A stretch of DNA of 6,940 bases. Source: a bacterium. GTDB taxonomy: Bacteria > Patescibacteria > Saccharimonadia > Saccharimonadales > UBA4665. The position numbers were made by a program, and so were the translations under genes. The notes under the pieces were generated by a model. That model had not been told where the DNA came from, searched no databases, and saw only the letters and a program-made list of their open reading frames with translations. The DNA is taken from the NCBI GenBank assembly GCA_021778165.1, contig JAJYCU010000034.1, forward strand, positions 1 to 6,940. Reading direction: 5' to 3'. Shown piece by piece: positions 1 to 6,940 of the stretch. The stretch's first letter is position 1, and the number at the start of each line of letters is the position of its first letter.

Positions 1-39
1 TCTAGCTTTAGGTAAGTTAGGGTTGATAGAATAAGCCAT
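1..39 (-). CDS. Transposase N-terminus, left IS copy (partial)
   Basis: A reading frame starts with ATG at 39-37 on the minus strand and leaves the window after 13 codons, MAYSINPNLPKAR. Its first eight codons and its whole leader are identical to the copy at the right end of the window. An SD sequence (AAAGGAG, 52-46) stands six bases before the ATG, and promoter boxes are present further upstream. The peptide reminds me of the start of helix-turn-helix, IS481-like (DDE) transposases of candidate-phyla bacteria, where an N-terminal Asn-Pro-x-Leu-Pro motif precedes the HTH. That family call is from memory and rests on very few residues. What the sequence does show is a repeated, outward-facing gene start inside a perfect inverted repeat, as expected for an IS. 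Catalytic residues are outside the window. Confidence 0.6.
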   Translation of the reverse strand, partial: MAYSINPNLPKAR

Positions 40-93
40 GGTAGGCTCCTTTCTGTAGTTATTTGATAGTATTTACAGTATACGGAGCCTACC
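40..93 (-). promoter_or_regulatory. SD-sequestering leader hairpin, left IS copy
   Basis: This is the mirror of the hairpin at 6863-6916. The arms are 93-84 and 49-40 on the minus strand, with the inner stem at 78-74 and 57-53. The SD (52-46) is largely buried in the arm next to the ATG at 39. Only RNA starting inward of about 93 would carry both arms. Confidence 0.7.
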
Positions 94-106
94 TTTTAGG
101 TTGCAA
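77..106 (-). promoter_or_regulatory. Transposase promoter, left copy
   Basis: On the minus strand TTGCAA (106-101) is followed after 18 bases by TATACT (82-77), five of six matches to the -10 consensus. Predicted transcription start is near 70. This lies downstream of one arm of the leader hairpin, so the native mRNA lacks that arm. Confidence 0.6.
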
Positions 107-130
107 TGCTGGTGAGTTACTACGTATTTA

Positions 131-159
131 TTGCTTTTTACCGAATATTATGTTATGAT
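131..159 (+). promoter_or_regulatory. Leaderless promoter of the 224-aa gene
   Basis: TTGCTT (131-136), a 17-base spacer and TATGAT (154-159) preceded by an extended TG (151-152). The ATG at 166 follows the -10 box by six bases, so transcription should start at or within a base or so of the start codon. The promoter begins only seven bases inside the IS end and points into the cargo. Confidence 0.6.
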
Positions 160-165
160 ATAAAA

Positions 166-840
166 ATGGTAACGCCGAACAATTATATCGAAAATCCAGA
201 GGCGAAAAACGCAAGTCAGGATGTTTTATCGACCATCATTGATTTAGCTAAAAGTACTATTAAGAATGACTTAGCTAATAGCATTATAAATACTGGCGAC
301 AAAACAAACGACGATGGTTTTGGCTATTTAAGAACTTTGGACACTTCAATATGCGTAGTATCATATGATAGATACAGCCAAGAAACGAGACAACGTTTGG
401 GCTTGGGCGATATCGAAATAGATATTACTCACTGGCTAGACCCCACTCAACTTGGTAAAGGACTGAATGAATTCTTTAATTTTAAATTCTATGTTGGCAA
501 TGATGGAATTAGAGGTATCAGAATATTTAATATTCGAAAATCGGTAAACTCTCCATTATTTGGTGGTGATAAAAATGATGGATTGCCTGTTTACCTAGAA
601 GATAATAACGAAGCTATATCTAGTATGAAACAGTCTTTCGAGGGACTACCTGAACAAATTCAAGGTACTAATAATAGCGTAGAGCAGCTGATAGAAATAG
701 GAAGAAGAGTAATCGGAGGACTAGACCCTAACGCATTAGAGATGGGGTTATTGAATGTTAATCAACATCAAGCCGAAGAGCTAATTGATTTATTAGTTTC
801 CGCCGAACCTACTACAAACCCATATTTCGAAGAAATATAA
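166..840 (+). CDS. Hypothetical protein, 224 aa, left cargo edge
   Basis: I do not recognise this protein. The open frame reaches back to 106, but those 20 extra codons lie in the IS end and the promoter, so I start at ATG 166, which gives a leaderless mRNA and MVTPNNY. The product is soluble, with no signal peptide or membrane segment. It is acidic and Asn-rich at the N-terminus (about residues 1-50). A mixed, beta-looking middle follows (about 55-125, containing VVSYDRYS and DIEIDITHWLDP), then a helical, acidic C-terminal third with NSVEQLIEIGRR and HQAEELIDLL. One cysteine is visible. The short Asp/Asn/Gly-rich stretch near FGGDKNDGLP could be a surface loop. It is the first cargo gene inside the left IS. 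The gene at the other cargo edge is also an orphan with no clear similarity to it. Confidence 0.75.
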   Translation: MVTPNNYIENPEAKNASQDVLSTIIDLAKSTIKNDLANSIINTGDKTNDDGFGYLRTLDTSICVVSYDRYSQETRQRLGLGDIEIDITHWLDPTQLGKGLNEFFNFKFYVGNDGIRGIRIFNIRKSVNSPLFGGDKNDGLPVYLEDNNEAISSMKQSFEGLPEQIQGTNNSVEQLIEIGRRVIGGLDPNALEMGLLNVNQHQAEELIDLLVSAEPTTNPYFEEI

Positions 841-934
841 TCAATTCTACGAAAACCAAATATACTTGCATCTGCATGCACGATGGTCCTCCAAAGATAA
901 GCATTTTAGTTTGTTAAAGATTCGATTTCTCGAC

Positions 935-952
935 ATCCATTGTACAATGGAT
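935..952. promoter_or_regulatory. 18-bp perfect palindrome over a -10 box
   Basis: ATCCATTGTACAATGGAT is a perfect palindrome. It covers TACAAT (943-948), the -10 box of the following gene, and ends two bases before its ATG. A dimeric repressor binding here would block RNA polymerase. No regulator can be assigned. Confidence 0.5.
943..948 (+). promoter_or_regulatory. -10 box, leaderless start of the 61-aa gene
   Basis: TACAAT (five of six to consensus) lies six bases before the ATG at 955, the same spacing as at the other leaderless genes here. I see no convincing -35 box. Confidence 0.45.
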
Positions 953-954
953 AT

Positions 955-1140
955 ATGCGTATATCGCATTCAAGAAAATACTGGATTTTTAGCCTTTCGA
1001 TATTTTTTGTCTGGGGTGTCGTTTTAATTGCCCATTGGACGATAGGTAGTCCACCACAACTTAAAACATTAGCTGTTTGGTTATTTTTCTACTTCGTAGG
1101 TTGGCTTTTAGCTACAATCGCTAGTAGTGTATATAGATAA
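955..1140 (+). CDS. Small membrane protein, 61 aa, two TM segments
   Basis: Unrecognised small integral membrane protein. I choose ATG 955 (MRISHSRKYW) because a -10 box is six bases upstream. A TTG five codons earlier would lie inside that box. After a short basic N-terminus (Arg and Lys within the first eight residues) come two hydrophobic segments, roughly residues 9-30 and 38-57. A turn containing GSPPQLK separates them, and the protein ends in VYR. The positive N-terminus suggests both ends are cytoplasmic with the loop outside. There is no SD sequence. It stands alone: the next genes are convergent, starting from 1255 on the other strand. Function unknown. Possible control through the palindrome at its promoter. 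Confidence 0.6.
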   Translation: MRISHSRKYWIFSLSIFFVWGVVLIAHWTIGSPPQLKTLAVWLFFYFVGWLLATIASSVYR

Positions 1141-1254
1141 CTTTAACTTTAATTTAATTTATACACAAAAGCAGGCACGATTGCATTCAATAACTCTTAT
1201 GTCAATCATTTAGTATATTTATAGCTAACTAACGCTAATAAAACTACTGTTAAC

Positions 1255-1473
1255 CTATATTTTCATAAACTGAAATAGGTAATAAATAAGATACGCTAGC
1301 CAAAATACAGCTTTAAATATCGCAAAAGCGACTAACTTAATGGTGCCTGAATGAAAGTGCAGATAATAAAATAGAGTACCGATAAAACCAAGAAACCAAA
1401 TTCCACCTATGCCACCATGTTGACTTACATTTATCATTCTCGAGCTAGTATATTTATTATCTTTATTTAGCAT
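1255..1473 (-). CDS. Small Gly-rich membrane protein, 72 aa, DUF4342 partner
   Basis: Small membrane protein with a polar N-terminus (about residues 1-18), then HGGIGGIWFLGFIG leading into a first hydrophobic segment (about 24-42), and a second (about 48-69) ending in YYLFQFMKI. The pattern of a glycine run, GFIG, a TM segment and then an FKAVFW-type TM resembles small unnamed membrane proteins seen in Clostridia and candidate-phyla bacteria. I know no function for them. The gene follows the DUF4342 gene after nine bases on the same strand, so they should be cotranscribed. No clear SD precedes ATG 1473, so translation may be coupled to the upstream stop. The second in-frame ATG (codon 13) is an alternative start. 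Confidence 0.7.
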   Translation of the reverse strand: MLNKDNKYTSSRMINVSQHGGIGGIWFLGFIGTLFYYLHFHSGTIKLVAFAIFKAVFWLAYLIYYLFQFMKI

Positions 1474-1482
1474 AACAACTCA

Positions 1483-1728
1483 CTAAACTTCTCTTTCTAT
1501 TGAAATCGTACATTCAGTAACCAAAGCCGCAATTGCACTAACGGCAGCTAATACTGGTAGTAAAACAGCTCCTACAACACCAATCGTTAGGGGTATCTCA
1601 ATAATTGATTTACCTTCTTTAGTTTTTATTGTAATCTTACGAATATTCCCTTGCTTAATAAGTTCTTTAACTCTTTTTAACAGTTCTTCGCCTTCAACTC
1701 TAAACTCTTCTTTTCGTTGTTTCTCCAT
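1483..1728 (-). CDS. DUF4342 domain-containing protein, 81 aa
   Basis: The whole protein matches the DUF4342 pattern as I know it. An N-terminal amphipathic helix (EEFRVEGEELLKRVKELIKQ, about 7-27) is followed by a basic beta-like stretch NIRKITIKTKEGKSIIEIP (about 29-47). Then comes one hydrophobic segment (about 48-69, TIGVVGAVLLPVLAAVSAIAA) and a short tail with CTISIERE. Some family members carry an N-terminal UBA-like helix, but the biochemical role is unknown. It is probably anchored in the membrane by the single hydrophobic segment. It starts at ATG 1728 with an SD (AAAGG, 1738-1734) five bases upstream, unlike the leaderless genes nearby. It forms a two-gene operon with the 72-aa membrane protein. 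Confidence 0.88.
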   Translation of the reverse strand: MEKQRKEEFRVEGEELLKRVKELIKQGNIRKITIKTKEGKSIIEIPLTIGVVGAVLLPVLAAVSAIAALVTECTISIEREV

Positions 1729-1968
1729 ATTTACCTTTCTTTAGCAGATATGCCTGATAACTCTCATAAGCATACTATTGTAGTAATTAAATAGATGTGG
1801 TTTTTATCACATGGTACATTATCAAGATATAATTAAAAATTACGGACAAAATTACTTAATAAACTTGGAGCCTCATTATAATAGCAATAACCCGTATGAT
1901 AGCTAAAAATCACGATTAGCTTATGATGATCGGTCTACAATTAGAAATGTTATTTTAAATCAATTTTA
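1729..1968. other. 240-bp AT-rich intergenic region
   Basis: I see no gene here. It must hold the promoter of the DUF4342 operon, though I find no convincing -35/-10 pair. TACAAT on the minus strand (1782-1777) is the best -10 candidate. A weak hairpin, AGCTAA with TTAGCT around 1901-1921, lies beyond the stop of the SRPBCC gene and could act as its terminator, but it lacks a T-tract. Confidence 0.35.
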
Positions 1969-2442
1969 TTATTCTAAAAATTTCTCTAGCTTTTTAAGTT
2001 GTTGATTAAATCCCATCTCCATACCTTCAACTGCCATTTTGGCATTTGGGCCAGTATTGTTAATTGTTGCTTTTAATAAAATTCTGGTCTTATTTCCTTC
2101 GTCAAATAATTCTATATGTGTTGTTTGGTCAATTTGAGTTGTTTTTTCTTGTCCTTCAGTCCAAGCCTTAGCATCATAGGATAACTTTAAATTTTCCTCA
2201 ACAATTGTATATCTGGCATCCATCGGCCATCTTACACCTTTATAGGGGCCCATAGCCTCACCCGCAACCATAACAATATAAAATCTTCCACCAACACGTA
2301 AATCTACTTCACATTCAGCTATATCGACGTTATCTGGTCCCCACCATTGACGTAATTGTTCTGGATCTGTCCATGCATTCCAAACCAAACTAGTTGATGC
2401 CTCATAGATTTTGTTTATTTCCAGTTCTTTAATTGGATTCAT
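1969..2442 (-). CDS. SRPBCC / AHSA1-family protein, 157 aa
   Basis: A single START-like (Bet v 1 fold) domain of the activator-of-Hsp90-ATPase-1-like family fills the protein. Family hallmarks are visible. An initial strand with IYEASTSLVWNAWTDPEQLRQWWGP (about 12-36, the usual 'W.a.TdpeqlrqWwgP' signature) is followed by DLRVGGRFYIVM (47-58). The middle contains strands with YTIVEENLKLSYD and THIELFDEGNKTRILLKAT, and the C-terminal long helix (about 138-157, GMEMGFNQQLKKLEKFLE) closes the hydrophobic pocket. Such proteins bind small hydrophobic ligands; the ligand is unknown. The gene follows the ArsR gene with only three bases between stop and start, and its SD (AGGAAGGA, 2456-2449) lies inside the end of arsR. 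ArsR-SRPBCC pairs are common, the regulator usually controlling the pair. Confidence 0.9.
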   Translation of the reverse strand: MNPIKELEINKIYEASTSLVWNAWTDPEQLRQWWGPDNVDIAECEVDLRVGGRFYIVMVAGEAMGPYKGVRWPMDARYTIVEENLKLSYDAKAWTEGQEKTTQIDQTTHIELFDEGNKTRILLKATINNTGPNAKMAVEGMEMGFNQQLKKLEKFLE

Positions 2443-2445
2443 AAT

Positions 2446-2763
2446 TTATCCTTCCTGTTTACTTAACTTTAAATATTCTTCTAAATTATCTAAGCGACTA
2501 GTCCAAGATCTTTCAAAAGAAATTATCCAATTATTTAATTCAATAAATGCATCAGGGTTTAATGAATAAATTCTTTTTTGGGCAACCGGTTTTACATTAA
2601 CTAATCCACTGTTATTTAATATTCGTAAGTGTTTAGATATTTGAGGTTGTCTTACTTTTAAAATTTTCACAAAATCATTGACTGAATATGACTGATTTTT
2701 TAACAATTCTACTATTTGAAATCTATTGGGTTCAGCTAACGCACTAAAAGTTTTTATATCCAT
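2446..2763 (-). CDS. ArsR-family winged-helix repressor, 105 aa
   Basis: Compact winged-helix DNA-binding protein of the ArsR/SmtB family. MDIKTFSALAEPNRFQIVELL (1-21) is the typical opening. The helix-turn-helix runs SVNDFVKILKVRQPQISKHLRILNNSGLV (about 27-55) with QPQISKHLRIL as recognition helix, and the wing follows (VKPVAQKRIYSLN). There is no ELCVC metal site and no cysteine at all, so it is not an arsenic or metal sensor of the classical kind. The C-terminus (WIISFERSWTSRLDNLEEYL) is the form seen in members paired with SRPBCC proteins. The start at 2763 follows a -10 box by six bases and has no SD, so the mRNA should be leaderless. It probably represses its own operon through the operator directly upstream. 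Confidence 0.92.
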   Translation of the reverse strand: MDIKTFSALAEPNRFQIVELLKNQSYSVNDFVKILKVRQPQISKHLRILNNSGLVNVKPVAQKRIYSLNPDAFIELNNWIISFERSWTSRLDNLEEYLKLSKQEG

Positions 2764-2769
2764 ATTTAT

Positions 2770-2799
2770 AATATACTATTTTGAGTATATTCTTGTCAA
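2770..2799 (-). promoter_or_regulatory. arsR promoter, leaderless
   Basis: A perfect -35 box TTGACA (2799-2794), an 18-base spacer and TATATT (2775-2770) are followed by six bases and the ATG at 2763. This is the best consensus promoter in the window. Confidence 0.75.
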
Positions 2800-2808
2800 G
2801 GAATATAC
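2770..2808. promoter_or_regulatory. Probable ArsR operator, three half-sites
   Basis: Three copies of a GAATATAC-like half-site alternate in orientation at 2808-2801 (GTATATTC), 2792-2785 (GAATATAC) and 2777-2770 (AGTATATT), spaced 16 and 15 bases centre to centre. The outer and middle sites form an 8-bp inverted repeat around the -35 box. The middle and inner sites form another (AATATACT, six bases, AGTATATT) running into the -10 box. The placement suits autorepression by the ArsR dimer. Confidence 0.65.
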
Positions 2809-2827
2809 ATTATTTATTTATCATAAT

Positions 2828-2858
2828 AAAAGAACCGACTTATTAAGACGGTTCTTTT
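2828..2858 (-). terminator. Intrinsic terminator after the 58-aa gene
   Basis: AAAAGAACCG (2828-2837) pairs with CGGTTCTTTT (2849-2858). The loop has a further CTT/AAG stem. On the minus strand it lies 14 bases after the stop at 2873 and is followed by a T-rich tail. The plus strand also ends in a T run, so it may work both ways, and it insulates the arsR promoter from upstream transcription. Confidence 0.75.
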
Positions 2859-2872
2859 TAAGTTTGAGATGG

Positions 2873-3049
2873 TTACTTATGGTGTATGAGCCATATTGTA
2901 ACGCCGGTGGAAATTACTACTAAAGCGTAGAATAAACCAAGGCCGACTGGCGAACCCCAACTAAACCAACTTCCCCAAGCCCGCCAATTTTTCATGTGTT
3001 CTCGGTGATGTTGGTCATACCACTCTGTATCAGTTTTTTTATCAATCAT
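2873..3049 (-). CDS. Trp-rich single-TM small protein, 58 aa
   Basis: This short gene starts at ATG 3049 and ends with TAA at 2873-2875. It has a clear SD (AGAGGA, 3063-3058) eight bases upstream and an intrinsic terminator downstream, which makes it a convincing gene despite its size. The N-terminal half is polar and His-rich (EWYDQHHREHMK, 9-20). Next comes NWRAWGSWFSWGSP with Trp at 22, 25, 28 and 31, every third residue, and then one membrane segment (about 33-55, GLGLFYALVVISTGVTIWLI) ending in HHK. The Trp ladder probably lies at the membrane interface. Its codons are visibly more GC-rich than those of its neighbours, so it may have a different origin or be part of the older chromosome. 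I do not recognise it. Confidence 0.75.
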   Translation of the reverse strand: MIDKKTDTEWYDQHHREHMKNWRAWGSWFSWGSPVGLGLFYALVVISTGVTIWLIHHK

Positions 3050-3220
3050 AAATTTTATCCTCTTATAATTAACCTAAAACAGTACTATCGACCATATACT
3101 ATCTACTCTTTAGGTGAATACCACATTCCTAATATGTCACGAGTAATGACTAGGCTGTTGCAAGGTGGATTTATATCATTAATCAAATCTTAACATTATT
3201 AAACAATTCTTATCAAATGA

Positions 3221-3248
3221 ATGACTCAATAGCTTTTATCTTTATGTT
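3221..3248 (+). promoter_or_regulatory. SDR gene promoter (tentative)
   Basis: ATGACT (3221-3226), a 16-base spacer and TATGTT (3243-3248) end eight bases before the GTG start at 3257. There is no SD. A leaderless mRNA starting with GTG is the likely outcome; the boxes are weak. Confidence 0.35.
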
Positions 3249-3256
3249 AATATTAA

Positions 3257-4015
3257 GTGGTGCAAAAGGCATTAATTACAGGTGCAACAAGTGGAATAGG
3301 TAAAGAATTAGCTATTTTGATGGCTAAGTCTAACCATGATTTAGTTTTAGTTGCAAGAAATAAAGATAATTTATTAGCTGTAAAAAATGAGATCAATAGT
3401 TTCTCAAGCGTAAATGTTTCATTCTATCAAGCAGATTTATCCCAAAATGGTTCTGCAGCAAAATTATTCAATGAAACTAAAAAAGAAGGTATTGAAATTC
3501 TTATTAATAATGCCGGGGTGGGTCTTAAGGGAGATTTCTTCCATGATGATTTATCAAAAACTATCCAAATAGCACAACTTAATATGATCAGTCTAATGGA
3601 ATTATCTCATCTATATGGAAATTATTTTTTAAAACAAAATAGCGGTAAAATATTAAACATAGGATCAATTGCTGCCTTTTTGCCAGGACCTAAACAGGCA
3701 GTATATTATGCGACAAAATCATTTGTTAGAAACTTATCTAGGTCACTTGCTTATAATTTAAGAAACTCGAATGTTACAGTTACTACCCTTCATCCGGGAG
3801 TGACTAAAACTAATTTTTTTAATGCTTCAGGGGCTACTAATTTTAGTAAAGGCGCACCTGCATCTTCAGTTGCAGCACTTGGTTATAAAGCAATGATGAA
3901 TGGTAAAATAGAAGTTACTTATGGTCTTTTTAATAAATTCTTAGTAAATTTTGTTCTTAGATTTATCCCTTATAAATACCAAGCATACCTGGTAGATAAT
4001 GCTTCTGAAATATAG
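3257..4015 (+). CDS. Short-chain dehydrogenase/reductase (SDR), 252 aa
   Basis: Classical NAD(P)-dependent oxidoreductase with a single Rossmann domain of usual length. The cofactor motif TGATSGIG is at 8-15. Arg34 after the second strand (LVLVARN) hints at NADP preference. ADL (59-61) contacts the adenine and NNAG is at 84-87. The catalytic tetrad is complete: Asn109, Ser137 (NIGS), Tyr150 and Lys154 (YxxxK). HPG (179-181) follows. The C-terminal part is hydrophobic (about 222-245, NKFLVNFVLRFIP), as in the DltE/YqjQ-like SDR group whose members act on hydrophobic substrates near the membrane. The substrate is unknown. Start: two GTG codons stand in tandem (3257 and 3260). I take the first; the second is one residue shorter. 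The gene stands between a divergent small gene and DUF1653, with its own promoter. Confidence 0.93.
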   Translation: MVQKALITGATSGIGKELAILMAKSNHDLVLVARNKDNLLAVKNEINSFSSVNVSFYQADLSQNGSAAKLFNETKKEGIEILINNAGVGLKGDFFHDDLSKTIQIAQLNMISLMELSHLYGNYFLKQNSGKILNIGSIAAFLPGPKQAVYYATKSFVRNLSRSLAYNLRNSNVTVTTLHPGVTKTNFFNASGATNFSKGAPASSVAALGYKAMMNGKIEVTYGLFNKFLVNFVLRFIPYKYQAYLVDNASEI

Positions 4016-4040
4016 ATATAATTTCGAAAAAATAAAATTA

Positions 4041-4065
4041 CTACTTTTTAAATTAATAAAAGTAG
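4041..4065 (+). terminator. Weak AT-rich hairpin after the SDR gene
   Basis: CTACTTTT (4041-4048) pairs with AAAAGTAG (4058-4065) around a nine-base loop, 26 bases after the SDR stop. There is no T-tract on the plus strand, so termination is doubtful. Confidence 0.3.
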
Positions 4066-4091
4066 AGATACTATCGGTGACTATTTAAATT

Positions 4092-4100
4092 TGATATACT
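4092..4100 (+). promoter_or_regulatory. Extended -10 promoter of the DUF1653 gene
   Basis: TG at 4092-4093, one base, then TATACT (4095-4100). The ATG at 4109 is eight bases further and there is no SD, so the mRNA should be leaderless. No -35 box is apparent, as is common for extended -10 promoters. Confidence 0.55.
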
Positions 4101-4108
4101 TTTTTTAA

Positions 4109-4384
4109 ATGGAAAGACAACCGACAAAAGAAGATAATTACCCCAAAATCGGAATTTACGAGCATTATAAAAGTACTCCTGAAGATCGAAGATATTACCA
4201 AATATTAGGTTTCGCCAGACATACAGAAACAAATGAAATATTAACTATCTATATCCCACTTTATCTTACAGAAAATACTCCTGGACTAAGGCTTCAAGCT
4301 CGACCCCTAGAAATGTTTACTGAAATAATTAATATCAATGGTGAAGAAATTCCAAGATTTCGTTATATCGGACACGAAATTTAA
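4109..4384 (+). CDS. DUF1653 domain-containing protein, 91 aa
   Basis: The protein is essentially one DUF1653 domain. The family pattern is easy to follow. GIYEHYKST (about 15-23) is the opening motif, then YYQILGFARHTETNEILTIYIPLY (about 29-52), where ARHTET is the most conserved stretch, then LQARPLEMFTEII (about 62-74) and finally EEIPRFRYIG (about 79-88). The domain is a small beta-rich fold; no biochemical function is established. It often occurs as a stand-alone small protein or fused to other domains. It is cytosolic, with no signal peptide. It has its own leaderless promoter and lies between the SDR and fusion genes on the same strand. Confidence 0.9.
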   Translation: MERQPTKEDNYPKIGIYEHYKSTPEDRRYYQILGFARHTETNEILTIYIPLYLTENTPGLRLQARPLEMFTEIININGEEIPRFRYIGHEI

Positions 4385-4410
4385 CTGTTAAGTATTTGTT
4401 TGATTTAAAA

Positions 4411-4440
4411 TTTAAAATCCGGAGACTCAAAACATTATTT
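4411..4440 (+). pseudogene. Fragment of a peptide deformylase coding sequence
   Basis: ATCCGGAGACTCAAAACAT at 4417-4435 occurs again at 4896-4914 inside the deformylase domain of the next gene. In the matching frame the upstream copy reads NPETQNII and then a stop two codons later, against DPETQNII in the intact gene (142-149). The differences beyond the exact core include ATC to ATT and ATA to ATT, which are synonymous. This is best read as a decayed remnant of a second deformylase N-terminal region, left by duplication or rearrangement. An alternative is a short duplicated regulatory or recombination site. Confidence 0.5.
4417..4435 (+). repeat. 19-bp direct repeat, copy 1 (intergenic)
   Basis: Identical to 4896-4914 at an offset of 479 bases. 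Together the two copies frame the promoter and the entire DUF1801 part of the fusion gene. Confidence 0.9.
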
Positions 4441-4456
4441 CTTAAAATAAATATTT

Positions 4457-4465
4457 TGTTATTAT
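4457..4465 (+). promoter_or_regulatory. Extended -10 promoter of the fusion gene
   Basis: TG (4457-4458), one base, TATTAT (4460-4465), then six bases to the ATG at 4472. No SD and no clear -35 box: a leaderless start. Confidence 0.55.
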
Positions 4466-4471
4466 TAAAAA

Positions 4472-5437
4472 ATGGAATCAGTCGATCATTATCTGAACAA
4501 TTTAAAACCACAGCAAAGAAAAGAACTTAAAAAAATACGCAAAATTATACATCAATTTGCACCCGACGTAGAAGAATCAATCAGTTATAAAATGCCAGCT
4601 TTTAAGGTCGATAATGAACCTCTTGTTTATATAGCAGCGTTCAGTAATCATTTAAGTTTTTTCCCAACTTCTAGACCAATAAAAGTAATGAAAGAAGGCT
4701 TAACAAATTTTAAGACTTCCAAAGGTGCTATCCAGTTTACTGCAGACAACCCATTACCAGAAAAAATAATTATTGAACTTCTAAATATAAGATTAAATGA
4801 TATTAGAAAAAATGAAGAATTCATTGAACAAGTGCCACCTAGTAGTAAGATTCTTAGCCAAGTAGCTAAACCGATAAAAATTAAAGAAATTAAAGATCCG
4901 GAGACTCAAAACATCATAAATACAATGTTTCGTATCGCATATGGCAGACAAGGCGACAAGAATTATCCAACATTAGTTGGTTTAGCTGCACCACAAATTG
5001 GTATATCAAAACGTATTATAATAATTGGAATTAACTCGGTTAGTGATGGTCAGCAGCCTGAACTAAGAGCCTTTATAAATCCAAAAATATTAAAATTATC
5101 AAAAGAGACAGAGGATGGCCGTGAAGGTTGTTTTTCAACCTCTAGGGTTTGTGGAATAGTTGAAAGATCAAAGTCAATAGTATTTGAAGCATATGACAGA
5201 AATGTTAAAAAAGTAACTATAACTCTAGAAGGTTTCCCTGCAAGAATTGCGCAACATGAAATCGATCATTTAAATGGAATTAGATTCCCAGACAGAATAA
5301 CAGATAATTCAAAATTGCATTGGGTCGAAGAATATGAATTTGGCAAATACAGAAATAATTGGAAGAAATGGACTATAAAATGCTCACCAGAAAAATGGCA
5401 GGCAATCAAATCTGGATTAATTAACTTTGTTATTTAA
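4472..5437 (+). CDS. DUF1801-peptide deformylase fusion, 321 aa
   Basis: Two domains sit in one uninterrupted frame. Residues about 5-115 are a DUF1801 (YdhG-like) domain: an N-terminal helix pair, SYKMPAF (38-44), HLSFFPTSRPI (60-70), KGAIQF (84-89), and LPEKIIIELLNIRLNDI (95-111). Residues about 124-315 are a peptide deformylase, which removes the formyl group from the initiator Met of nascent proteins. Its three metal-site motifs are present. Motif I is VGLAAPQ (169-175), with Leu where the first Gly of GxGLAAPQ is usual. Motif II is EGCFS (218-222, Cys220, Phe in place of the common Leu). Motif III is HEIDH (262-266, with the catalytic Glu263). So activity is likely. Ordinary deformylases have 150-230 residues and no DUF1801 domain. 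The start is leaderless at ATG 4472. The stop overlaps that of the opposing 7-TM gene. Confidence 0.92.
   Translation: MESVDHYLNNLKPQQRKELKKIRKIIHQFAPDVEESISYKMPAFKVDNEPLVYIAAFSNHLSFFPTSRPIKVMKEGLTNFKTSKGAIQFTADNPLPEKIIIELLNIRLNDIRKNEEFIEQVPPSSKILSQVAKPIKIKEIKDPETQNIINTMFRIAYGRQGDKNYPTLVGLAAPQIGISKRIIIIGINSVSDGQQPELRAFINPKILKLSKETEDGREGCFSTSRVCGIVERSKSIVFEAYDRNVKKVTITLEGFPARIAQHEIDHLNGIRFPDRITDNSKLHWVEEYEFGKYRNNWKKWTIKCSPEKWQAIKSGLINFVI
4896..4914 (+). repeat. 19-bp direct repeat, copy 2 (in deformylase domain)
   Basis: Identical to 4417-4435. This copy is coding, covering most of DPETQNI (142-148) in the N-terminal helix region of the deformylase domain. Confidence 0.9.
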
Positions 5438-6132
5438 ATTCTATGATTATTTGTTTTGGGAGAAATAATTGGAGTTATCGCAAATACTAAGATTAAAGCA
5501 TAAATAACTGCAAAACCACACATAATCGAAGGAATCCCATTAATTGTTTTTGGATTAATCGTATTAACTATACCTGTAGGAAGCAAGAAGCTTAAATAAC
5601 CAAATGCTTGTAGATATAGCGCTTTTTTTATTTTTTTAGATGAGGACCTAGCAAAATAAAGACAAAGCCCAATACCAAGAATAAGGAGCAGATAATAATA
5701 AGCAAAGTAAAATCCACCAACTTTATTAGCAAGTGTGAATATTGAATAATTTCCACCACAGACGCGGCTTAAAAATGCAGTATTTTGAAATCCTAAAGTT
5801 ATAGCGAATATAAAACTAACTAAATAAGTCGAATAAATTGACCAGTTATTCGTTTTCTTAGCAATCTTATAGATTAAATGCAGCCCTAGCGCAGGTAATA
5901 ATGTAATTGCAACAAACCCAATATGCATAAACAGCTCAGACTTATATCCACCGCAAACATTAAATTCAGCTAGTTGAAATATTGCTAGTAAGATCAAGAT
6001 AGCGGCTATAATTCTTGTGACAGAATTCAATTTATATCGATAAATTACATAAAAAAACATCGTCACTTCTATTATCATCGTAAGCAACATTATAGGTGGC
6101 GAGAAACAATATAAAGTATTATTTCTTTTCAT
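5434..6132 (-). CDS. Seven-TM membrane protein, 232 aa, function unknown
   Basis: Polytopic membrane protein with seven predicted segments at about 12-34, 40-58, 67-90, 99-117, 140-161, 171-192 and 200-223, with basic connecting loops such as KKTNNW and RSSSKKIKK. Two CGG motifs, NVCGGY (58-63) and RVCGGNYS (123-130), occupy the loops after TM2 and TM4. On the positive-inside rule these loops are outside, so Cys60 and Cys125 could form a disulfide. The size and topology recall 7-TM sensor modules of histidine kinases, but no kinase or other output domain follows. I recall similar unnamed proteins in candidate-phyla bacteria. The start at ATG 6132 lacks an SD and overlaps the stop of a possible five-residue leader peptide. 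Its stop overlaps that of the deformylase fusion by four bases, tail to tail. Confidence 0.8.
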   Translation of the reverse strand: MKRNNTLYCFSPPIMLLTMIIEVTMFFYVIYRYKLNSVTRIIAAILILLAIFQLAEFNVCGGYKSELFMHIGFVAITLLPALGLHLIYKIAKKTNNWSIYSTYLVSFIFAITLGFQNTAFLSRVCGGNYSIFTLANKVGGFYFAYYYLLLILGIGLCLYFARSSSKKIKKALYLQAFGYLSFLLPTGIVNTINPKTINGIPSIMCGFAVIYALILVFAITPIISPKTNNHRI

Positions 6133-6149
6133 TATACTAAGATTAGCAT
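6132..6149 (-). other. Possible five-residue leader ORF
   Basis: ATG at 6149 opens MLILV and its TAA shares one base with the ATG of the 7-TM gene (TAATG). AATAAT lies seven to twelve bases before this ATG, so the mini-ORF could be the leaderless start of the transcript. The downstream gene, which has no SD, would then be reached by reinitiation. This is a speculative reading of an AT-rich stretch. Confidence 0.25.
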
Positions 6150-6223
6150 TTATAAATTATTTATCATAAATATAATAGATGCTTTTTAAAAAATTTAATT
6201 AATTGTCTTTAATATTTTTTTGA

Positions 6224-6760
6224 CTACTGAGTCTTTATTATTTTCTGAAATTCAGTTTCACCGATTATGCCAGCTAAAATTCTTTTGGATAACTTTTGAT
6301 TTTTCAACATAAAATCAAAAGTTGTTTTAGAAACATTATCAAAAGAATCAATAAGAAGACTATTTGATGTTTCAATAAATCCTGATACTTTTGGTCTAGA
6401 ACTTAAATTGATAACACCAAGAAATAAACCGTGTTGTAATTTTTCTAAACTAGACATATTTTGCCTAAAAACACTTAAATCATTAACCCCTAGATCAATT
6501 AATTCATCATTAACTGCATACAATAATTCAATCCATCCTACTTGTAAAGTAGGGTTTAATGAATCAATTCCCTCTTGCCCCAAAAATATAACAGGATTTC
6601 TTAACATACATTCTGAATTATTTAATGTTTGTTTATCTTCAGTAGAAGCCACTATATTCGAAAAATTTTCAGCTAAAACTAATTGTTCTTCTTTAAAATG
6701 TTTCATTCTATCATGTAAGATGAATGATTCAACTTTATCACTTGGATGTAATTCAAACAT
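6224..6760 (-). CDS. Hypothetical protein, 178 aa, right cargo edge
   Basis: Unrecognised soluble protein. The open frame extends back to 6850 inside the IS end, but those 30 extra codons cover the promoter and IS tip, so I start at ATG 6760 (MFELHPSDKVESF). There is no signal peptide or membrane segment. Predicted structure is largely helical: FILHDRMKHFKEEQLVLAENFSNIV near 13-37, a more mixed centre with RNPVIFLGQEGIDSLNP and WIELLYAVNDELIDLGVNDL, and a helical end FDFMLKNQKLSKRILAGIIGETEFQKIIK. One cysteine is present in the ECMLRN stretch. The start codon has no SD. AATAAT sits six bases before it, and a stronger promoter lies at 6825-6797. It mirrors the 224-aa gene in position, both reading inward from an IS end. 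Confidence 0.72.
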   Translation of the reverse strand: MFELHPSDKVESFILHDRMKHFKEEQLVLAENFSNIVASTEDKQTLNNSECMLRNPVIFLGQEGIDSLNPTLQVGWIELLYAVNDELIDLGVNDLSVFRQNMSSLEKLQHGLFLGVINLSSRPKVSGFIETSNSLLIDSFDNVSKTTFDFMLKNQKLSKRILAGIIGETEFQKIIKTQ

Positions 6761-6796
6761 ATATATATTATTAATTCTATTATTTAAACTAAACAA

Positions 6797-6825
6797 ATAA
6801 TACCATAATATTATATATAAGTCAA
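6797..6825 (-). promoter_or_regulatory. Inward promoter next to right IS end
   Basis: TTGACT (6825-6820), a 17-base spacer and TATTAT (6802-6797) with an extended TG one base before it. It lies at exactly the mirror position of the promoter at 131-159. Transcription would start near 6790 and give a leader of about 30 bases without an SD before ATG 6760. Confidence 0.6.
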
Positions 6826-6849
6826 TAATACCGTAGTAACTCACCAGCA

Positions 6850-6879
6850 TTGCAACCTAAAAGGTAGGCTCCGTATACT
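6850..6879 (+). promoter_or_regulatory. Transposase promoter, right copy
   Basis: TTGCAA (6850-6855), an 18-base spacer and TATACT (6874-6879) form an outward promoter at the IS end. Predicted start is near 6886. The hairpin arm GGTAGGCTCC (6863-6872) lies inside the spacer and so is not part of the native transcript. Confidence 0.6.
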
Positions 6880-6916
6880 GTAAATACTATCAAATAACTA
6901 CAGAAAGGAGCCTACC
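6863..6916 (+). promoter_or_regulatory. SD-sequestering leader hairpin, right IS copy
   Basis: GGTAGGCTCC (6863-6872) is perfectly complementary to GGAGCCTACC (6907-6916). The second arm contains most of the SD (AAAGGAG, 6904-6910) and ends directly at the ATG. An inner stem, CTGTA (6878-6882) with TACAG (6899-6903), stacks inside the loop. On a transcript entering from the cargo side the SD would be paired; on mRNA from the IS promoter the first arm is missing and the SD is free. This matches the known strategy by which IS elements such as IS10 and IS50 block activation by external transcription. Confidence 0.7.
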
Positions 6917-6940
6917 ATGGCTTATTCTATCAACCCTAAC
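6917..6940 (+). CDS. Transposase N-terminus, right IS copy (partial)
   Basis: ATG at 6917 begins MAYSINPN and the window ends after eight codons. It is preceded by AAAGGAG (6904-6910) with a six-base gap, the strongest SD in the window. Leader and codons are identical to the left copy in opposite orientation, so the two frames point away from the cargo. The likely product is a transposase, IS481-like by the look of the longer left copy, but no catalytic part is visible. Translation should be shut off on read-through mRNA by the leader hairpin described separately. Confidence 0.6.

Follow-up and report, generated by a model that had tools for sequence, protein, structure and literature searches.

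An IS481-like insertion sequence of Saccharimonadia that appears to insert at a fixed distance upstream of host promoters

We analysed a stretch of 6,940 nucleotides (the window; contig JAJYCU010000034.1 of assembly GCA_021778165.1, from a member of the Saccharimonadales, class Saccharimonadia, Patescibacteria), and read it, with a probability of roughly 85%, as host DNA lying between two independent insertions of one promoter-homing insertion sequence (IS), an IS481-like element of about 1 kb. One end of this element, which we term type-8, would join the target in such a way that the 6-bp staggered cut falls directly upstream of the -35 box of a host promoter, and the promoter would be left intact, pointing away from that end. 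The two copies in the window probably arrived separately, and the promoter may be recognized by the transposase itself or by way of bound RNA polymerase. Two insertions over promoters that face inward point outward by themselves, and the mirror-image layout of the window arises in this manner without a larger mobile unit.

Positions 16-124 of the window are the exact reverse complement of 6832-6940, which bears out the perfect 109-bp inverted repeat that a sequence-only reading of this DNA had reported at both edges; a 29-bp probe from the repeat, allowed up to three mismatches, matches only two places in the window and none in 200 shuffled sequences. The perfect repeat ends at the IS tip, CGTA, at positions 124 and 6832, and a wider inverted match at the window edges (144 nt, 92% identity) reaches past the tips because a similar promoter motif adjoins both of them. 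The left copy is present as its 5' part at 1-124 on the minus strand, comprising the tip at 124 (TACG on the plus strand), a leader and 13 transposase codons (MAYSINPNLPKAR), and the right copy as its 5' part at 6832-6940 on the plus strand, comprising the tip at 6832, the leader and 8 codons (MAYSINPN) before the window ends. Both tips are type-8 and both window edges cut through the IS, leaving 124 bp of the left copy and 109 bp of the right copy inside. Each arm carries an outward promoter-like motif found by a consensus scan, TTGCAA-18-TATACT (77-106 on the minus strand, with its -35 inside the terminal repeat, and 6850-6879 on the plus strand), followed by GGAG, an ATG and the first codons of one common gene. 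The outward promoter, ribosome site and shared gene start that had been read from each arm are hence confirmed by the sequence, and their description as inverted, outward-reading copies of one IS is supported; the further statement that the two ends are identical stands for the tips, where identity is visible, the copies beyond 124 and 109 bp lying outside the window.

The repeat is the tip of an IS481-like IS of Saccharimonadia. A degenerate search pattern spanning the ribosome site and the initial codons recovered four loci in bacterial genome contigs; of 294 genomes sampled from the order of genome G004, 27 match the protein N-terminus from one of these loci, and the full transposase of locus L020 has matches in 33 of 392 genomes drawn from its class (E up to 1e-10). 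The transposase is 321 residues long in loci L020 and L033. Domains can be named from such relatives, the window itself holding only 13 codons: L020 has rve, rve_3 and HTH_23, and L135 has LZ_Tnp_IS481 in addition. The best NCBIfam model is IS481, with scores of 171.5 bits for L020 and 159.5 bits for L033, below its cut-off of 224. A complete copy in genome G437 (locus L132, 321-1344) measures 1024 bp. The tips are composed of CGTA, 4 or 5 bases, YTCA and an inner box like CCTTTGCAAC, and the ends are named type-8 or type-9 by the spacing from CGTA to YTCA, type-8 being CGTA-N4-YTCA. Because the tips start with CGT and not with TGT, as IS481 terminal repeats do, we call the element IS481-like. 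More distant elements, L135 in G539 and L137 in G667, share 42% and 41% identity with L020 across the stretch that matches; these two genomes belong to an order with 13 genomes, as against the 294 drawn from that of G004, and thus to a different order.

The evidence for promoter homing comes from the DNA flanking these tips. Ninety-two candidate tips (47 + 45) were collected, from which three that are not IS tips were dropped by hand (one each in L004, L068 and L089), two more were dropped for short flanks, and one with 7-bp spacing was set apart, giving 51 type-8 and 35 type-9 ends with those of the window included; the second ends in L041 and L087, outer-end-like with 8-bp spacing, were kept among the 51, where both fail and are counted against the pattern. 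Outward of the type-8 tips, past the first 6 bp, TTG stands at offset 7 in 35 of 51 cases (TTGAC in 20), TGnTA at 27 in 28 and TAnnnT at 30 in 31. As judged by its motifs, this is the pattern of a -35 box, a 17-bp spacer and an extended -10. At type-9 tips, offset 7 carries TTG in 4 of 35 cases and TTGAC in one. When the flanks were scored with a leave-one-out matrix over 26 registers, 38 of the 51 type-8 ends were best at register 0, a result with a probability of about 5e-43 on the assumption of equally likely registers and independent sites, and 37 of the 51, versus none of the 35 type-9 ends, exceeded the 99% level of off-register scores. The elements of the other order, L135 and L137, are likewise both best at register 0 (12.3 and 4.5).

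The division into type-8 and type-9 ends was noticed after the first flanks had been seen, and a held-out set scored with the frozen matrix serves as its test: 16 of 19 type-8 ends were best at register 0 and 18 of 19 fell within 1 bp of it and above the 99% level, compared with none of 8 type-9 ends. Seven of these 19 had been seen earlier with the same matrix (five at register 0), and 11 of the 12 new ends were at register 0. A looser pattern, applied to the earlier-seen ends, had included two more type-8-like ends and one type-7-like end that fail and that the stricter held-out pattern excludes; one held-out end was skipped for insufficient flank, and several share their genome or IS lineage with the training set (G351, G138), at different sites. 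In L035, L070, L081, L150 (G859), L160, L164 and L167 (G351) the type-8 end is the one away from the transposase start, and the promoter again lies in front of the type-8 end; the promoter side is set by end type and not by the direction of the gene.

Both tips in the window conform to this picture. On the plus strand the left tip reads TACG|TATTTA|TTGCTT-17-TATGAT, with TATTTA at 125-130 as the putative site of its 6-bp target duplication, the -35 at 131-136, the -10 at 154-159 and an ATG 7 bases further on, and the inward motif (131-159) has a leave-one-out score of 12.5, best at register 0. The right tip on the minus strand reads TACG|GTATTA|TTGACT-17-TATTAT, with GTATTA at 6826-6831, the -35 at 6825-6820 and the -10, preceded by TG, at 6802-6797, and its motif (6797-6825) scores 15.5, again best at register 0. 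The positions of both duplications are taken from the 6-bp duplications of relatives, and the partner copy of the left one would lie outside the window.

That the adjoining promoter belongs to the host is most directly seen at empty sites. In genome G284 two insertion points of G437 occur without the IS, with 89% and 90% identity across the joint, the promoter intact and a single copy of TAGGGG and of CTGTG beside it; the search for such sites covered 2 of 15 joined sites. The promoter therefore does not arrive with the IS. One of the two promoters precedes the gene for ribosomal protein L27, and the complete copy of G437 (L132:321-1344) lies directly upstream of an L27 gene promoter. The notion that the motif is an outward promoter of the IS end itself could draw on its adjoining one end type only; it is contradicted by its position outside the target duplication, since with the 6 bp being that duplication the promoter beyond is host DNA, and by its differing between sites, and it is refuted at the two empty sites in G284, so that we regard it as practically negligible.

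The target duplications also bear on whether the copies move alone. When type-8 and type-9 tips were paired within single loci (26 pairs), the flanks were identical over 6 bp in 14 pairs and over 5 bp in 3, agreed over 6 bp with one mismatch in 2 and showed no duplication in 7, whereas flanks from different loci agree in 2 of 1759 comparisons; of held-out loci inspected by eye, L150, L151 and L154 share 6 bp and L134, L136 and L153 do not. The copies with the 14 exact duplications therefore moved singly, with a 6-bp stagger. Two loci are unusual in their ends. L154 (G869) has 8-bp spacing at both ends and an exact common 6-bp duplication (AAATAG/CTATTT), one end being best at the promoter register (10.5) and the other scoring 6.9 there and better elsewhere. 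L153 (G861) contains two type-8 ends, both at strong promoter motifs (15.6 and 17.7), and one type-9 end, and represents either neighbouring or nested insertions.

These results do not favour the composite transposon that had earlier been proposed for the window, in which the inverted copies and the 6.7 kb between them would move as one unit through their outer ends. The identical inverted tips at both edges do suit such a structure. Its outer ends and outer duplication, however, are not within the window, the outer ends of the inverted pair would be of the type that does not face promoters elsewhere, and relatives move singly, with exact duplications in 14 of 26 cases. The frame itself is accounted for by contig breaks in the IS: contigs of relatives end inside it (C8 of G001, C2 and C25 of G003), and the transposase match begins within 20 bases of the contig start in C6, C10 and C12 of G389 and in C2, C34, C57, C59 and C66 of G351. 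Assembly by itself can thus yield a contig with a copy at either end, and such a contig is silent on joint mobility. We consider a composite transposon with the cargo as one unit very unlikely and the claim for it unsupported; annotators of these genomes should not call a composite transposon on the sole ground that a contig ends in a pair of outward-facing copies.

Several observations weigh against two single, promoter-directed insertions. The outer halves of both copies lie outside the window, and single insertion there rests on the behaviour of relatives, of which 7 of 26 tip pairs show no duplication. Thirteen of the 51 type-8 ends score best at a register other than 0; among the five ends of relatives whose DNA is closest to the window's IS, register 0 is best in L003 (9.5), L006 (9.7) and L005 (4.3), the last of them weak, and L004 and L011 have no promoter at the register. 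In the window, the left -35 box, TTGCTT, is weak, agreeing with TTGACA at only 3 of 6 positions, and a plain consensus promoter scan gives 39 sites as against 38.1 in shuffled sequences, recovering the right inward motif and missing the left one; only the fixed register, and not the plain scan, carries the information.

How the register comes about can be narrowed further. Under simple tolerance, the IS would insert anywhere and copies upstream of promoters would be those that survive in compact genomes, an account favoured by the small size of the IS-bearing genomes (0.5-1.3 Mb) and by an outward open reading frame starting within 100 nt at 33 of 49 type-8 ends, as opposed to 12 of 36 other ends (35 type-9 and one type-7). 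Tolerance, however, predicts a spread of distances, while the signal occupies one of 26 registers at 54 of 70 type-8 ends and tracks one end type even where the gene is reversed; we accordingly hold it to be highly improbable. Preference for the -35 pentamer TTGAC alone, the -10 being present merely since such sites are usually promoters, fares somewhat better and is best called unlikely. Consistent with it, TTGAC stands at offset 7 in 20 of 51 targets and TTG in 35, and the background for comparison is all fetched DNA, mostly coding, so that between genes TTGAC may be accompanied by a -10 in more than the 5% of cases seen there. Yet TAnnnT is in place at 15 of 20 TTGAC targets as against 28 of 544 background TTGAC sites, coding included, and still occurs at 6 of 13 targets without TTG at offset 6 or 7. 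From these counts a preference for TTGAC alone looks insufficient, and more than one pentamer would seem to mark the site; the same counts do not distinguish direct reading of the DNA from recognition via bound polymerase. Our tentative proposal, to which we give somewhat less than even odds, is that a group of small ISs in at least two orders of Patescibacteria recognizes the sigma70-type promoter itself: in the simplest case one transposon end would dock on RNA polymerase bound at the promoter, and insertion 6 bp upstream of the -35 would let the host gene keep its promoter.

The leader of the element has a structure of its own. Between tip and ATG, a 10-bp stem is predicted that would cover the ribosome site (-23.6 kcal/mol, z -4.5; z -5.1 for 6862-6925), formed in the left copy (40-93, minus strand) by GGTAGGCTCC (93-84) with GGAGCCTACC (49-40) and in the right copy (6863-6916, plus strand) by GGTAGGCTCC (6863-6872) with GGAGCCTACC (6907-6916), the latter adjoining the ATG at 6917. 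From copy to copy both arms differ in concert, the pairs being GGTAGGCTCC/GGAGCCTACC, GCGGGTCTCC/GGAGGCCCGC, ACAGGTCTCC/GGAGGCCTGT and CGGCTGTTCT/AGAACAGCCG. As arms were chosen to be the best-pairing ones, the evidence is not the pairing itself but its comparison with 200 shuffles, at most 10 of which pair as well in 23 of 40 leaders, with more doing so in the other 17. In the element's own promoter motif the 5' arm falls inside the spacer that separates -35 from -10, and RNA from that promoter would therefore be without it; this truncated RNA retains some folding (-9.9 kcal/mol, z -3.0). The hairpin may silence translation of the transposase from read-through RNA, which own-promoter RNA would escape by lacking the 5' arm. 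Protection against read-through transcription by leader structure is known from other ISs; a search for literature on impinging transcription returned none. Short remnants of the IS in L004 (294-524) and L006 (4899-5192) retain the tip, the hairpin and the helix-turn-helix part of the transposase and then soon end, after 69 residues in L006 and with a stop codon at the same stage in L004. In sample DBS2-1, two different bins terminate in one and the same IS tip (L003:1-129 and L005:2953-3081, 99.2% identical over 129 bp), which may reflect recent exchange or else an effect of binning.

Behind the left promoter motif lies a gene for a 224-residue protein of no known family (166-840, plus strand), whose ATG, 7 bases past the -10, would suit a leaderless transcript; in a search of about 5.8 billion proteins its product matched solely itself, listed with a contig of 883 bases. 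The gene behind the right motif (6224-6760, minus strand) encodes 178 residues from an ATG at 6760, with no Pfam or NCBIfam match. Between them, at 940-6132, are host genes for a DUF4342 protein, an AHSA1-like and ArsR-like pair, an SDR, a DUF1653 protein, a DUF1801-deformylase and small unknown or membrane proteins. The ArsR-type regulator adjoins the AHSA1-like protein at 1969-2763, both on the minus strand. The deformylase fusion that had been read from the sequence is real, with DUF1801 and Pep_deformylase domains, while deformylase homologues among the matches listed are mostly stand-alone proteins of about 210 residues. A 31-bp direct repeat (90% identical, 4408-4438 and 4887-4917) flanks the DUF1801 part, its second copy falling within the deformylase part, and may be a trace of how the fusion arose. 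The earlier guess of a patescibacterial host has been borne out: the 120 best matches to the deformylase and the 120 best to the SDR have Candidatus Saccharimonadales, Saccharibacteria and Patescibacteria among their named members, and genomes of both the order and the class to which G004 belongs contain the IS. Of the 120 best deformylase matches just one exceeds 90% identity, a 249-residue protein from a 1332-base contig.

There is no evidence of mobility for the genes at 940-6132. No other cargo gene lies beside the deformylase genes of G004 and G002 (two loci, with one genome in the family of G004), a result that weighs neither for nor against joint mobility; megablast returned no plasmid record matching the window, and the 78 phage records matching the deformylase are all below 60% identity, with none covering more than 80% of it. 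Two viral contigs with the 20-base pattern of ribosome site and ATG were set aside, the pattern lying in unrelated genes. An Rfam scan of the window gave no family at the gathering threshold.

Host-sparing transposons that use one safe kind of site are few and instructive, and in the present case that site would be the promoter, in small host genomes that leave little other room for insertion. If this is true, each copy marks a host promoter to the base, allowing maps of start signals (TTGAC, 17 bp, extended -10) to be drawn for the largely uncultured Patescibacteria, and the element would offer a compact system for how a transposase reads a promoter, be it by sequence or by bound polymerase. 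Among the matches listed in searches of the literature on promoter-targeting ISs and on IS or IS481 elements in Saccharibacteria and Patescibacteria, a search mostly outside subscription papers, no IS with a promoter register was found.

The eukaryotic retrotransposon Ty3 integrates next to the start sites of tRNA genes, a case of safe-site integration. The present element would be its bacterial counterpart, in that integration occurs at a fixed place relative to transcription start and the gene is spared, unlike Ty3 in being a bacterial IS at sigma70-type promoter motifs. In IS10/IS200, RNA structure in the leader controls translation of the transposase. The same holds for ISPpu9 (PMC8450116), and the element studied here resembles all of these in an RNA structure over the transposase start, differing in that the predicted 5' arm lies between its own -35 and -10 and appears to change together with the 3' arm. 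A large survey finds that ISs frequently occupy promoter regions, at distances below 100 bp from genes, and its relevant passages give no fixed register (PMC9208149). Similar in targeting logic are ISAjo2 and the IS1202 family, which hunt dif sites, with contact to a bound protein, XerC, suggested by the authors (PMC10132070): a fixed distance and orientation to a defined host site is common to both, but the IS1202 family has dif or pdif targets, 5-bp duplications and transposases of 441-457 residues, as opposed to promoters, mostly 6 bp and about 321 residues here. With a transposase of 321 residues in L020 and L033, the element is not a member of the IS1202 family, dif sites as such not having been searched. 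In its build it is nearest to IS481 and to ISLxc2 of Leifsonia xyli, an IS481 member with an NCTAGN duplication, with which (PMC2516522) it shares a length of about 1.0-1.1 kb, a single transposase of about 320-330 residues with a helix-turn-helix and an integrase core, CTCA near the tip and a 6-bp duplication. It departs from the IS481 equivalog in scoring below the NCBIfam cut-off, and from ISLxc2 as there described (PMC2516522) in having tips that start with CGT and not with TGT, as those of ISLxc2 and of IS481EU (PMC10045372) do, in lacking CTAG, the core of the NCTAGN target of one IS481 branch, in all 14 exact duplications even though their length of 6 fits, and in a target just upstream of the -35.

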